Source: Cytobacillus gottheilii (GTDB lineage: Bacteria; Bacillota; Bacilli; Bacillales; Cytobacillaceae). From it: 64,000 nucleotides of DNA. The first letter of the stretch is position 1; the number at the start of each line of letters is the position of its first letter. Shown in pieces: positions 57,147-62,685 of the stretch. The stretch lies in NCBI RefSeq assembly GCF_001636345.1, contig NZ_KV440945.1, positions 181,340-245,339 of the forward strand. The letters are read 5' to 3'. The translations under genes and the position numbers were made by a program. The notes under the pieces were generated by a model. It saw only the letters and a program-made list of their open reading frames with translations, was not told the origin of the DNA and did not search any database.

Positions 57147-57632
57147 ATGAAAATTACCATCATATCCGTCGGAAAACTAAAAGAAAAATACCTAAAACAA
57201 GGCATAGACGAATACCTAAAACGCCTCACAGCCTACGCCAACGTCAATATCATCGAAGTCCCTGACGAAAAAGCACCAGAAAACATGAGCCCAGCCGAAG
57301 AAGAAGAAGTCAAAAACAAAGAAGGCAAAAAGATCCTTGCCCACATCAGCCAGGACACCTACGTTATTACCCTGGAAATAGGCGGGAAAATGCTAACCTC
57401 CGAACAACTTGCTGAAAAACTTGATAGCCTTGCTACATATGGGAACAGCAAAATTGCCTTTATTATTGGCGGGTCGCTTGGGCTTAGTGATGAAGTAAAG
57501 GCTGCCAGCAAGTTTGCATTGTCTTTTTCAAAGATGACGTTTCCTCATCAGCTAATGCGGCTGGTATTGGTGGAGCAGGTTTATCGGAGTTTTCGGATTA
57601 ATCGGGGGGATGCTTACCACACCAAACCCTAA
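57147..57632 (+). CDS. rlmH: 23S rRNA (pseudouridine1915-N3) methyltransferase RlmH with an altered C-terminus
   Basis: RlmH is a small SPOUT methyltransferase acting on helix 69 of 23S rRNA. It starts [22 protein letters not shown] and has the SAM-binding [14 protein letters not shown] and the tail [18 protein letters not shown]. The family normally ends YHK or YHR. Here the end is YHTKP, two residues longer (161 residues). That change lies exactly where SCC-type islands insert in staphylococci. Codon usage also shifts within the gene, from C-ending codons before about 57400 to G/T-ending codons after. Low-GC accessory DNA follows. Confidence 0.95.
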
Positions 57633-57720
57633 AACAAGTTTTATCGATATTAATGAGTCAGTGGAATTTGTGTTGTATATGACAGATGGCGTAATAACTC
57701 AAATGAAAAGGGCAACATAA
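57610..57720 (+). other. short open frame across the rlmH end, possible remnant
   Basis: An ATG at 57610, inside the last codons of rlmH in another frame, opens 36 codons ending TDGVITQMKRAT at 57720. I do not recognise it. It may be the truncated end of a gene brought by the island, or chance. Confidence 0.25.
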
Positions 57721-57724
57721 AGGG

Positions 57725-57755
57725 AAAAGGTGACTTTAACAGGTCACCTTTTATT
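57725..57755. terminator. bidirectional terminator between rlmH and its paralogue
   Basis: AAAAGGTGAC (57725-57734) and GTCACCTTTT (57743-57752) pair perfectly around TTTAACAG, so the hairpin can serve both convergent genes. The right arm reaches into the paralogue's stop codon. Confidence 0.85.
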
Positions 57756-58152
57756 TGTGGTATGGCTCATTATTGAGAATGCGATATGAACGGTAAATCT
57801 GCTCAAACATTATGAGTGTTTTAATTCCTAAGTCCATTTCCATTGGACTAATGGCTAATACTTCATCATGGGGTAAATTATCAGCACCAATAATAATAGT
57901 TACATCTGATTTGCCTGTTATCCCTAATTGATTTATTTTTTCAGCGAGTTCCTCTGATGTTACCGTTGTTCCCATAACAGAAATCAATATCTTATAGGTC
58001 TTATCTGAAATTTTTTTTAAGAGCTGTTCTTTGTTCTTAAAGTGTTGTAATTTTATTTTACAGTATCTGCTCAAACGCTTCTCATATTCCTTTATACCTT
58101 CGAGAAATGTCTTTTCAATTTTATCTCCAACAATGTAAATTTTAATATTCAT
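57751..58152 (-). CDS. short RlmH paralogue (SPOUT methyltransferase), tail-to-tail with rlmH
   Basis: The 133-residue protein has the RlmH outline: MNIKIYIVGDKIEKTFLEGIKEYEKRL, shown here as IKIYIVGDK...GIKEYEKRL, then EELAEKINQL, IIIGADNLPHDEV and the tail FEQIYRSYRILNNEPYHK. It is about 28 residues shorter than the chromosomal RlmH, mainly in the middle. The GG of the SAM loop is G-A here. It keeps the canonical YHK end that the chromosomal copy has lost. It lies on the opposite strand, on the lagging side, at the island's edge. Confidence 0.88.
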   Translation of the reverse strand: MNIKIYIVGDKIEKTFLEGIKEYEKRLSRYCKIKLQHFKNKEQLLKKISDKTYKILISVMGTTVTSEELAEKINQLGITGKSDVTIIIGADNLPHDEVLAISPMEMDLGIKTLIMFEQIYRSYRILNNEPYHK

Positions 58153-58349: not shown

Positions 58350-58667
58350 ATGCAAATATCACAAGAAGTTATTTTTAATCGTTTTCCTTGGGCAAGACCA
58401 GTCGATTTAGAGATTGATGATTCTGTGGAGGGGTGGTATTTCAGTGATGTTATGCCTTGGACCTTCAATCAGGCTCAAATGAAGTTGATACACACAATAC
58501 TTGAAGAGGTAGAACATTGGTATTTGTTAAGACACAAGCCGATTGAGGTTGTAATAGTCGAATTTAAAGAGGTTCAGGGTCACGTTTTTGTTGAGAAGAT
58601 TTGTGGGTTTCCTGAGGTGGATGACATATTCGAAAAATATCGAGCTATATATCTTGGAGAGCAATAA
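58350..58667 (+). CDS. hypothetical protein, paralogue of the next gene
   Basis: This 105-residue acidic protein is not one I recognise. It shares with the next gene an N-terminal FNRFPWAR block, then WTFNQAQMKL and ILEEVEHWYL. It has no signal peptide or membrane helix. The ATG at 58350 follows GGAGAGGGA. The next gene begins three bases after its stop, so the two form a pair. A small acidic tandem pair in an island could be immunity-like, but that is only a guess. Confidence 0.7.
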   Translation: MQISQEVIFNRFPWARPVDLEIDDSVEGWYFSDVMPWTFNQAQMKLIHTILEEVEHWYLLRHKPIEVVIVEFKEVQGHVFVEKICGFPEVDDIFEKYRAIYLGEQ

Positions 58668-58670
58668 TAT

Positions 58671-59030
58671 ATGCTCAATCTGTCTAGAAAGAGCATTTTA
58701 GAGAGGTTCCCTTGGGCAAAGGAAAAATCTTTATTCGACAAAATTGATACTGAACAAGATTTTGATGATTCAATTGAATGGAACTTAAACGAAGCACAAC
58801 TTCAGCTTGTTGTAATGCTATTCGAAGAACTAGAGGAATGGTTTAAAAGCCGAAATAGAAATATTGACATCAATATTTATTTTGTAGGGGAATCATTGGA
58901 TGCACTCCATATTGATTTTTCTAGCAATACACGTGAAGTCTTTTTAATCATAGATAAGTATAAACAGTTCTCATTGGATTTATTGGATGAAGTCGATGAT
59001 GAAGAAGATGATTATGAGGATATATTCTAA
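58671..59030 (+). CDS. hypothetical protein, paralogue of the previous gene
   Basis: The 119-residue acidic protein shares I..RFPWA, W.(F/L)N.AQ(M/L).L and EE(L/V)E.W with its neighbour. It ends in a run of aspartate and glutamate (DEVDDEEDDYEDIF). I do not recognise a domain. It has no clear ribosome binding site, which fits translation coupled to the previous gene. A hairpin terminator follows its stop. Confidence 0.7.
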   Translation: MLNLSRKSILERFPWAKEKSLFDKIDTEQDFDDSIEWNLNEAQLQLVVMLFEELEEWFKSRNRNIDINIYFVGESLDALHIDFSSNTREVFLIIDKYKQFSLDLLDEVDDEEDDYEDIF

Positions 59031-59867: not shown

Positions 59868-60770
59868 ATGTTAAACAATTTATTTAAACTACCACAAGGT
59901 CTGCAAGCAATGGACGAAAGTAACTCAATGAAACCAACAAAATTAAAGGTTGTTGAAGCAACCAATCTTTCCACTCTAACAATTGAAGAAAGAGCAAAAA
60001 GAGAGGAAAGATTAAATGAGCTAATAGAAAGCAAACTTGGTAAAAAGGTTTTAGAAGAATGGCAGATTGAGGTTCTCTATGGAAGGTCGAGTTCATTGAA
60101 TAGACAATCTCATGCAATTAAGTTAACTAATAATATTACAGGAGAAAGTATCGCTTTCCTAAAAAATGAGATTCAAAATATGAAAAATGCAGACCAAATT
60201 GTAGATACCTTAAATATCATCGGTGAAGTTGAAAGGAATTACATTAGATTTTTTGGAAACTACATTAATGCAGCGAGAGTACTTCCTGATAGAGTAACGG
60301 TCGTTAAGGATTTATCACTTGTAGTGTCCGAACGGAACTTAGCAGTGGGATTTACTGTCCTTGAATATTATCAGTTTTTTGCTCAAGATTATTTCCATAA
60401 TCAAGGTTTGTATCCTACAAAAAGTAGCAATCAATTTAAAAAGGGTGTAAGTCATGGAATTATTCATGATTCAGAGAGTCAGGGGTATTTTAAAAATGAA
60501 TATGGTTATTATCCTGTGGCAATTAGGTCAGGTAACCTTGAAAAGTTATTTCCTTATATGAGTGACCAGGAGTTTGGACAAGTTATTAGTAAACTCAATC
60601 ATCTAGGGGTATTGCATGAATCTACATCAAGAAGGATAGAGAGAAATACAAAACCTAAACGGAGAATAAAAATGGTAGATATGCAATTAGAGAAAAAAGG
60701 CGACCCGGACTATCATGAAGATGTATATATTTTCAATATTATTCCACATCTATTAGAAGGGAGCAACTAG
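59868..60770 (+). CDS. hypothetical protein coupled to an adenine methyltransferase
   Basis: I do not recognise this 300-residue soluble protein. It has a charged, probably coiled-coil segment at about residues 38-60 (TIEERAKREERLNELIESK) and a central part with aromatic clusters. The C-terminal stretch, YMSDQEFGQVISKLNHLGVLHES followed by a basic RRIERNTKPKRR, could be a winged helix. The ATG follows GGGGGCA. It ends one base before the methyltransferase gene, so the two are translated together, and its product may recruit, guide or be paired with the methyltransferase. Confidence 0.7.
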   Translation: MLNNLFKLPQGLQAMDESNSMKPTKLKVVEATNLSTLTIEERAKREERLNELIESKLGKKVLEEWQIEVLYGRSSSLNRQSHAIKLTNNITGESIAFLKNEIQNMKNADQIVDTLNIIGEVERNYIRFFGNYINAARVLPDRVTVVKDLSLVVSERNLAVGFTVLEYYQFFAQDYFHNQGLYPTKSSNQFKKGVSHGIIHDSESQGYFKNEYGYYPVAIRSGNLEKLFPYMSDQEFGQVISKLNHLGVLHESTSRRIERNTKPKRRIKMVDMQLEKKGDPDYHEDVYIFNIIPHLLEGSN

Positions 60771-60771
60771 T

Positions 60772-61698
60772 ATGGCAAAACCACTAAGAAAATCAGACCC
60801 AATGGATTCATTGGGTTCAAAAAGACAGGTTATTCAACAATTGTGTGAGGTGGCAGAGTATGCCATCTCCACTTATAACATTGCAGGGGTTCAAGAGCTA
60901 TTTGGAGGTGGATTTCGCTTCAGCCTATATCTTGACCACGATGGTAATTTAGAGTTTAGAACTGCAAATGAAATTGATTACGGGGTAGTGAGCCTTTTCC
61001 AATGTATGCAAGACCTTAACAAAACTGACCAGTTAATCGAGCAGATTTGGTTACTAGCTGATGAATATAGTACAAAGGGTAAGTTTGAAGAAGCAATGGA
61101 AGAGCGAATAGACCCAGAAACTCCACTAATTCGTGCAGCCGCCTTAACTTACATCGTAGTGGAATATTCTCGTTCTGCTGATAGACAAACCTTTTCACAA
61201 CATGATGCAGATGATGGTATCTCACCTAAGTCATTAAAGAAGTTATACGATGTAGACCTTGACATTGGTGATGTCCAAATCTTCTGTGGCGATTACAGGG
61301 AGCAGTTTAACAAATATAAAAACCGTTCAGATGTTTTGATATACCTAGACCCTCCGTACTTAGTCACTGAAAAACCGAAGCAGTTTAAGAAGGTTAGAAA
61401 AAAGAAGGACAGTGATGAAAGTAATACTAAGGAAACAACAGGCTATGTGCATCCATTTACCATAGAAGACCACAAGGAACTTGTAAAAAACTTATTAACT
61501 ACAAACAATAAATATATCTTGTCAGGTTACGAGAATGATGTATACAAGCCCTTAGAGGATAAAAAAAATGGTTTCTACAAATATTTTCTGGGACTTGTAA
61601 AAATATCTTCAGGGAAGAAAAAGAAAGAGTTTATATGGACAAATTTCCAACTCCCTGAAGGTTTACTACCAGAAGAGCCCTCAGATGAGGATTTATAG
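60772..61698 (+). CDS. Dam-like N6-adenine DNA methyltransferase
   Basis: The 308-residue protein has the D12-class pattern: an early GSKRQVIQQL, the SAM-binding QELFGGGFRFSLYL (residues 41-54, the Dam F.GGG motif), ANEIDYGVVSLF, and the catalytic DPPY at 193-196 within LIYLDPPYLVT. The spacing between the motifs, and a lysine-rich stretch after DPPY (KKFKKVRKKKDSDES region), are unusual. No restriction endonuclease is visible next to it. It may be an orphan methyltransferase or half of a module with the preceding gene. Confidence 0.85.
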   Translation: MAKPLRKSDPMDSLGSKRQVIQQLCEVAEYAISTYNIAGVQELFGGGFRFSLYLDHDGNLEFRTANEIDYGVVSLFQCMQDLNKTDQLIEQIWLLADEYSTKGKFEEAMEERIDPETPLIRAAALTYIVVEYSRSADRQTFSQHDADDGISPKSLKKLYDVDLDIGDVQIFCGDYREQFNKYKNRSDVLIYLDPPYLVTEKPKQFKKVRKKKDSDESNTKETTGYVHPFTIEDHKELVKNLLTTNNKYILSGYENDVYKPLEDKKNGFYKYFLGLVKISSGKKKKEFIWTNFQLPEGLLPEEPSDEDL

Positions 61699-62139
61699 GA
61701 GGGGTATCTAGTAACTTATTACCTCTAGGGTATTTATTTGTCTTTTCAAATTCGCTCACAAATTGTTTCTAGGGTCGGTAGGCTATTCATCCCTTACTTT
61801 TGTTTACACTCGTCAATTTCGGTGCTTAAAATCGCTTACAGGGGTATTGCTTATTTATTTGTATATAAAATTACTGTTTCGATTAAAGGGATTTATAAAA
61901 ATCTCTTTTTTTGTGCCTTTAAATCAAACTGTTTTTTTCCATAGGTTTTGACTGACATTTTGCAATAGAACATGGAAAGTTTATACGAAAGGTGAGTTGA
62001 GTGTGCATATAAAAATTAATTACTATACCAGCTAATCTACCATATCATCAATAGCCGAGACAATTTTATAAATATCAGGACATCGAACGTTATCTATTAA
62101 CGGTATAGAAGCTGAGTAAATGTAAAGAGGGTGAGAATA
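61699..62139. other. intergenic region with a terminator-like hairpin
   Basis: A hairpin AAAGGGATTT with AAATCTCTTT (about 61885-61908) is followed by a T-run and probably ends the methyltransferase operon. Short open frames here lack ribosome binding sites and show no protein-like character. Confidence 0.5.
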
Positions 62140-62685
62140 ATGGGTAAAACAATCGGATACCTTTGCACGAAAAAGCATAGCGAAGCTCAACTGTACAAAA
62201 GCGTAGTTAAAGCTGATAAGTTTTACATCGACTTAGCAACCGATCGAGGCTGTTCTAGTTATGCAGAGTTTAATAACTTAATAGAAGAAGTAGAGGAAAA
62301 TGATAAAGTCATCCTGCCAAGTCTAGTTATGATAAGTGAAGATTTAGACGAGGTCTATAATCTCCTATGCATTTTTCGTAATAAGGGGGTAAAGCTGAAT
62401 CTCTTAAATCCAACAAGAGGAGAGGAAATCTTCTTAACCGATGGTGGATTTAAAACATTGGAAGCAATATTCAGTCTCCGCAGGGATGTAACCAAAATTA
62501 GAGGTGCAATTGAAATTAAAGCTGAGAACCAAATCAAGCATCGAGAAAATCAAGAAGTATTTCCAGATGGTTTTTATCAGGTATTTATTGATTATAAGAA
62601 TAATGGTCTAAAGGCGGAAATGGCAGCCAAGAAACTAAAAGTAGATGTTCATAAGTTCTACAGGCTAGTACGGGAATTCAGTTAA
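62140..62685 (+). CDS. resolvase-like protein lacking catalytic residues
   Basis: The 181-residue protein follows the outline of small serine recombinases. It starts GKTIGYLCTKKHSEAQLYKS, has YAEFNNLIEEVEENDKVILPSL and LDEVYNLLCIFRNKGVKLNLL in the positions of the resolvase core, and ends with the helix-turn-helix LKAEMAAKKLKVDVHKFYRL. The catalytic serine with its arginine (usually Y.RVS) is replaced by YLCTK, and the DRL.R arginines are replaced by MISED. It is probably a DNA-binding regulator or decoy, not a recombinase. The ATG follows AGAGGGTGA. Confidence 0.7.
   Translation: MGKTIGYLCTKKHSEAQLYKSVVKADKFYIDLATDRGCSSYAEFNNLIEEVEENDKVILPSLVMISEDLDEVYNLLCIFRNKGVKLNLLNPTRGEEIFLTDGGFKTLEAIFSLRRDVTKIRGAIEIKAENQIKHRENQEVFPDGFYQVFIDYKNNGLKAEMAAKKLKVDVHKFYRLVREFS

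Follow-up and report, generated by a model that had tools for sequence, protein, structure and literature searches.

Islands inserted in rlmH carry a short RlmH proposed to donate its catalytic tail to the altered host enzyme

A mobile island at the 3′ end of rlmH in Cytobacillus gottheilii has altered the C-terminal tail of the host enzyme and carries a shortened RlmH gene that converges on it. The same arrangement recurs in four other genomes, and all five short proteins keep the residues that one RlmH subunit lends to its partner while having lost most of those that form the SAM pocket. We propose that the short RlmH is a dedicated tail donor that restores RlmH as a heterodimer, a reading based on sequence comparison to which we assign a probability of about 0.6. 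More broadly, we lean towards a picture in which such islands encode a SAM-less pseudo-RlmH that donates its tail in trans to the host RlmH they truncated, forming an obligate heterodimer, and in which a second branch of the same kind of recombinase used a captured full-length rlmH.

A convergent RlmH pair at an island boundary

The window analysed comprises 64,000 nucleotides (C1:181340-245339) of genome G000. As the initial annotation had recognized, a second RlmH ending NNEPYHK lies on the opposite strand, tail-to-tail with rlmH:

57147-57632, + strand: rlmH, 161 aa; SAM-binding side intact, C-terminal tail GDAYHTKP (GEPYHK in relatives)
57725-57752, either strand: hairpin between the convergent genes, terminator-like on both strands
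57751-58152, − strand: short RlmH, 133 aa, the proposed tail-donor subunit

The rlmH product passes the NCBIfam RlmH cut-off (252.7 bits against 172). Its closest relative in the genus set, G010, has an RlmH that is 97% identical and ends GEPYHK; directly after this intact rlmH, G010 carries an apparently different insert (L050:4006-8908). GDAYHTKP retains the tyrosine and histidine of the tail, with the lysine shifted one place on, so the window rlmH may keep activity. The short RlmH matches Pfam PF02590 (SPOUT_MTase; 8.1e-26, 91.3 bits, cut-off 27) and falls below the NCBIfam RlmH equivalog cut-off (best 87.7 bits against 172). Its predicted fold, modelled from a shallow alignment of five sequences with RlmHs among them, is RlmH-like (mean pLDDT 79.9; TM 0.86 to 1to0_B of B. 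subtilis). A promoter scan gave matches no better than chance level.

The two genes had also been described as tipped by an inverted repeat, TACCACA. The heptamer is indeed present at 57615-57621 and, as its reverse complement, at 57756-57762, with 134 bp between, but it is nothing special: the two strands of the window hold eight copies against 7.8 expected under uniform base composition, and we rejected it as a functional inverted repeat on that count. The heptamer partly spells the conserved Y-H-K codons, was found in 3 of the 63 intact tails tallied and, in the window rlmH, lies past the crossover, among the island bases. Chance does not account for the arrangement itself, since other genomes too have the GDAYHTKP tail and a short gene convergent with it.

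Attachment sites and island anatomy

The insertion at the rlmH 3′ end is delimited by att sites (attL at 57609, attR at C1:262187) and measures 23,239 bp from GA to GA, with rlmH at its left end. The islands of G234 and G509 are laid out alike. The features that the argument needs are:

57609-57610, + strand: putative GA crossover step of attL, placed by comparing attL and attR, intact relatives and the G234 and G509 islands
57610-57720, + strand: 36-codon open frame and stop, interpreted as the cut-off 3′ portion of the recombinase gene
58350-58667, + strand: backbone gene, 105 aa, NRFPWA motif; relatives in the G234 (53%) and G833 (30%) islands
58671-59030, + strand: backbone gene, 119 aa, ERFPWA motif; relatives in G234 (58%) and G833 (27%)
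59868-60770, + strand: island gene, 300 aa; relative in the G509 island (28%)
60772-61698, + strand: D12-class DNA adenine methyltransferase (PF02086, 1.9e-14); relatives in G234, G509 and G833 (113 residues)
62131-62685, + strand: backbone protein, 184 aa; relatives in G234 (35%) and G833 (24%)
C1:260619-262223: large serine recombinase, 534 aa, with Resolvase, Recombinase and zinc-ribbon domains (PF00239, PF07508, PF13408)

Crossover probably falls at the GA step inside the glutamate codon of G-E-P-Y-H-K, the bases 3′ of the step belonging to the island. The displaced rlmH tail, GAACCGTACCACAAATAG, marks attR at C1:262187, within the 3′ end of the recombinase gene. The best NCBIfam match of this recombinase is CcrB, with all three scores under the curated cut-offs (CcrB 282.6 against 900, CcrC 189.3 against 900, CcrA 170.6 against 700). 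In G234 the layout is the same, with a recombinase 81% identical, attR at the recombinase 3′ end and an island of about 36.7 kb; the G509 recombinase is 47-51% identical and fits a crossover at the same GA. No G000-like recombinase was found in the stretches around the G098 or G833 island; both stretches contain masked letters, so the recombinase is placed in only three of the five islands of the short type.

At the left end, the 111 bases that follow the crossover form an open frame that is in phase with the recombinase gene (L004:2619-4223) through the att core. Comparable frames occupy the same place in G098, G234 and G833, and a weaker one is seen in G509. Between G000 and G098 the frame differs at 2, 3 and 7 sites at codon positions 1, 2 and 3, with other pairs nearer even, which is modest evidence of coding constraint. 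attP appears to lie within the recombinase gene, so that integration would exchange the recombinase C-terminus, with the last 36 codons stranded at the opposite island end.

Three rlmH-tail copies stand in tandem (C1:262187, 266490 and 269892; L004:4187, 8490 and 11892), the second and third of which suggest tandem accretion. The flank shared with G010 starts again near C1:279426, preceded by shorter matches from about C1:272893. G234, G509 and G833 have genes in common with the G000 island, not each in all, among them the short RlmH, the RFPWA proteins, the D12 methyltransferase and the 184-aa protein, which looks resolvase-like by eye only and has no Pfam or NCBIfam match. G098 has none of the G000 island genes except the short RlmH. 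Cargo of the G000 island beyond the window includes two N6/N4 DNA methylases.

Short RlmHs form a mobile family

A profile of four short RlmHs, searched against 397 genomes of the order, returned only G000, G234 and G509 below an E value of 1e-69; the next match (2.6e-24) was a canonical-length gene. Among 398 genomes of the class, one further short RlmH was found (G833, 2.7e-66). Together with that of G098 (Bacillus mediterraneensis), this gives five short RlmHs, hosted by five genomes from four families and two orders of Bacilli, G833 representing another order. They group as a single clade (100/100) with a long stem. Each of the five is convergent to an rlmH with a changed tail, 0.1-3.7 kb away: GDAYHTKP in G000, G098, G234 and G833, and a stop directly after GEA in G509. 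In B. mediterraneensis, rlmH and the short RlmH are separated by an ABC-3C-type defence operon (HNH with CTD11, DUF2326 protein; L089:615-3212).

An old, vertically inherited paralogue, which the initial annotation had named as the counter-case, was looked for in relatives without an island. The short gene is missing from 35 of the 36 genomes of the genus, and the G000 and B. mediterraneensis copies are 98% identical whereas the host RlmHs of the two are 71% identical; on these grounds we rejected vertical descent. Judged by its distribution and identity, the short RlmH belongs to a mobile family. Outside chromosomes, no short RlmH was confirmed on viral contigs, where one partial canonical-type RlmH was seen, and plasmids (23 records) and phages (22 records) gave only matches below 60% identity; those listed (20 and 10) reach at most 38% and nearly all span the canonical length.

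Comparison of the G000 and G833 short genes (dN 0.145, dS 1.70) indicates strong purifying selection between the more distant members; several other pairs are saturated and gave no synonymous estimate. The G000 and G098 short genes differ at three bases, all amino-acid changing and none synonymous, and this pair does not show purifying selection.

Altered rlmH tails are accompanied by a second RlmH

The initial annotation had proposed a survey of whether second copies go with insertions, and the association held. Among 469 genomes checked, a second RlmH was found in 11 of 11 with a damaged rlmH tail and in 1 of 458 with an intact one, where 'intact' mostly denotes an alignment reaching the last query residue rather than a sequence read individually, and where second copies were sought with differing queries and thresholds across parts of the sample. 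The sample covered all 36 genomes of the genus, 153 of 157 from the rest of the family (135 + 18; four without a match) and 280 of 381 from the rest of the order (136 + 2 + 62 + 80; 98 outside the count and three without a usable match). The association gives a Fisher p of 2e-21 (1.7e-5 in the genus alone) if shared descent is ignored; related elements are not independent, so the honest count is two element lineages.

The damaged tails are those of G000, G004, G011, G012, G098, G234, G264, G349, G374, G509 and G564, and in all 11 an intact second RlmH lies within 5 kb of rlmH. G833, which came from the class search, is a twelfth case outside the census. The single exception with an intact tail, G086, has its intact second RlmH on a different contig, where rlmH-tail copies occur as well. 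Among the other genomes with intact tails, G015, G032, G046, G118, G437, G463, G549 and G560 have only fragments of a second RlmH, and G049 gave a second weak match with one query that was absent with another. The G549 fragment (L137, C1:3432000-3445000) is 90 aa long, ends GEPYHK and lies with recombinase-like stretches away from rlmH.

Seven of the damaged genomes carry islands of another recombinase lineage, 64-97% identical within itself and about 31% identical to the G000 type. In G004, G011 and G012 (same genus) and in G264, G349, G374 and G564, rlmH ends PYIF, PYIFQG or PYLV, and a full-length RlmH ending EPYHK sits 3.3-4.3 kb further in. In the phylogeny these island RlmHs fall with native rlmH from a different family of the order, and they retain both the SAM side and the donor side; the row set used for this comparison (8 rows) includes the native rlmH of G266 (L138), and the G086 gene is absent from it. 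The one that was scored reached 245.6 bits, above the equivalog cut-off of 172. In one of the seven genomes, G264 (L131), the host rlmH contains an internal stop, apparently through decay after replacement; in all five host rlmHs beside a short RlmH, the frame stays open as far as the changed tail. The recombinase frame of the second lineage likewise runs through the att site into rlmH antisense. Three of these islands were read further and contain BREX genes (BrxC in G004, G011 and G012; BrxA and BrxB in G011 and G012; BrxF in G004).

Tail-sparing insertions seem to exist too. In G027, G032, G017 and G006 (L022, L028, L030 and L034), TGGTAAA... comes after YHK-stop, together with a frame similar to the tail of another recombinase. 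Three of these four genomes have one RlmH copy, and G032 has broken pieces of a second.

Donor-side and SAM-side residues are partitioned

In the E. coli RlmH dimer, the SAM site comes from one monomer and the C-terminal tail from its partner (PMC5430550). The variants E138A/Q, Y152F, H153F and R154A are inactive, yet dimeric and SAM-binding; R154A also binds ribosomes poorly, and R154 is missing from some orthologues (PMC5430550). Because the active site of the dimer is composite, a subunit acting as tail donor is possible.

We aligned the short RlmHs with 64 canonical RlmHs and considered 25 positions that are at least 98% identical, taken from PMC5430550 except P128, which we added. All seven donor-side positions (25, 26, 138, 142, 152, 153 and 154) are kept in all five short RlmHs, against 2 of the 18 SAM-side positions (103 and 125; Fisher 7.5e-5, or 1.0e-4 without P128). 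The glycine-rich SAM motif is broken in every short protein, IGGSLG becoming IGADN, MGTEN or IGSSN with the first glycine kept and the second and Gly107 lost; all five also lack H129 and stretches of 19 and 7 residues, while the catalytic E-R-Y triad and the Y-H-K tail are present throughout. The 11 damaged host RlmHs aligned (13 rows minus two duplicates, G833 included and G264 left out for its broken frame, one row without its start) keep the SAM side, with position 108 changed in one and 127 in two; 154 is lost in all 11, and 153 is lost in seven and kept in the four ending GDAYHTKP. The short RlmH and the damaged host RlmH look like complementary halves of one active site.

Several features temper this partition. 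The tail-donor case is built on only five short sequences; among the 16 SAM-side positions that are lost, some carry conservative substitutions (for example, L72 to I or V); and position 11 is lysine in the short proteins, as in E. coli, where the Bacilli consensus is leucine. The short family has also lost residues without a stated SAM role: over all 83 invariant columns, 23 are kept and 39 lost in all five. Its dimer face is changed as well (I74 to V, T or S, a conserved Asp at P128 and a Lys at 132), so pairing of the short RlmH with the host RlmH is not assured. The Asp and Lys (E. coli numbering 128 and 132) are family-specific, present in all five, and take the place of Pro and Met close to the dimer face, where they might tip pairing towards heterodimers and away from homodimers.

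In the model that we favour, the final codons of rlmH are the target of a mobile island akin to staphylococcal SCC elements, whose large serine recombinase crosses over at the GA of the Glu codon. As this point lies upstream of the catalytic tail, integration replaces the tail, by GDAYHTKP in G000 and by a stop right after GEA in G509. The island brings a shortened RlmH with its donor residues kept and its SAM pocket shed, which would pair with the SAM-intact host RlmH to give one complete composite site per heterodimer. Such a heterodimer would keep pseudouridine 1915 of 23S rRNA methylated, presumably to the benefit of the island.

Alternative explanations

The short RlmH could instead regulate or block, as an RlmH inhibitor, a ribosome-binding decoy or a defence or island-maintenance factor. 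Pseudoenzyme paralogues are often regulatory, the island has defence-like cargo, and a ribosome-binding tail without a SAM pocket could compete with RlmH. A role of this kind is nevertheless unlikely: it leaves unexplained both the association with changed tails in five of five cases and the invariance of the donor-side catalytic triad and tail, and an inhibitor would have little purpose against an enzyme that the insertion has already damaged.

That the GDAYHTKP RlmH is still active and the short gene a passenger of a common island backbone appears rather improbable. Y152 and H153 are kept in four of the five short-type hosts, the short gene belongs to a backbone that the islands share in part, and the three G000-G098 differences all change amino acids. 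G509, however, lacks PYHK altogether and still has the short gene, selection between distant members is strong, and R154A abolished the activity of E. coli RlmH (PMC5430550).

The initial annotation had suggested a spare RlmH that replaces the damaged one. The association with damaged tails supports this idea, with a correction: the short protein has lost the SAM pocket, so it is more likely half of a replacement than a spare that works alone. We regard it as highly improbable that the short RlmH methylates the ribosome alone as a homodimer: its genetic association is that of the full-length island RlmHs and it keeps the tail and fold, but the broken motif, the loss of H129 and the missing 19 and 7 residues are common to all five, and its 87.7 bits lie below both the cut-off and the score of the full-length island copy. 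We dismiss the further suggestion that the paralogue's tail is a second attachment site, for although seven bases are shared and rlmH-tail copies do accumulate here as tandem att remnants, none of the five short genes is interrupted, and the 18 bases upstream of the crossover codon carry 10-13 mismatches to the attB consensus, over which the canonical genus genes compared have 0-4.

Relation to known systems

If the tail-donor reading holds, mobile elements have disseminated a natural form of intersubunit complementation in which one gene supplies the SAM half and another the tail half, a counterpart in nature of the mutant test for composite active sites. It would account for islands that recombine within the catalytic codons of a conserved enzyme of ribosome modification, and it predicts a rule, namely that tail-sparing islands lack an RlmH and tail-cutting islands have one. 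Insertion of the short type would turn the host homodimer into a two-gene enzyme dependent on the island.

SCC insertion is described as leaving the RlmH tail working, whereas in these islands the tail is not kept intact. The islands resemble SCC in that their recombinases are closest to CcrB among NCBIfam families and in their tandem composite structure, and differ in having recombinases well under the curated Ccr cut-offs (282.6 and 402.3 bits against 900), a crossover upstream of the catalytic tail codons that alters RlmH, and an RlmH of their own. SCC elements are likewise inserted near the rlmH end by large serine recombinases, and composite rlmH islands of other Bacillota lie downstream of rlmH, some with several rlmH-end copies, and use large serine recombinases; the accessible part of that account mentions neither an RlmH paralogue nor tail loss (PMC10061031). 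Among the open-licence papers listed by our searches, none described an RlmH paralogue on an rlmH island or a tail-donor RlmH, which is weak evidence of absence.

Some elements, among them those that target tRNA genes, icd and prfC, rebuild the 3′ end of the gene in cis. These also integrate inside a gene whose function is kept; here a separate protein would act in trans. RlmH itself, the 23S rRNA pseudouridine-1915 N3-methyltransferase, has its fold and tail in common with the short RlmH and is a homodimer, with no heterodimer or tail-only subunit mentioned in the accessible part of its description (PMC5430550). A parallel to the proposed pairing is AdoMet decarboxylase and its prozyme, a catalytically dead paralogue that its partner needs; both of those are trypanosome proteins (PMC5201418), whereas here the dead partner would ride on the element that breaks the live one.
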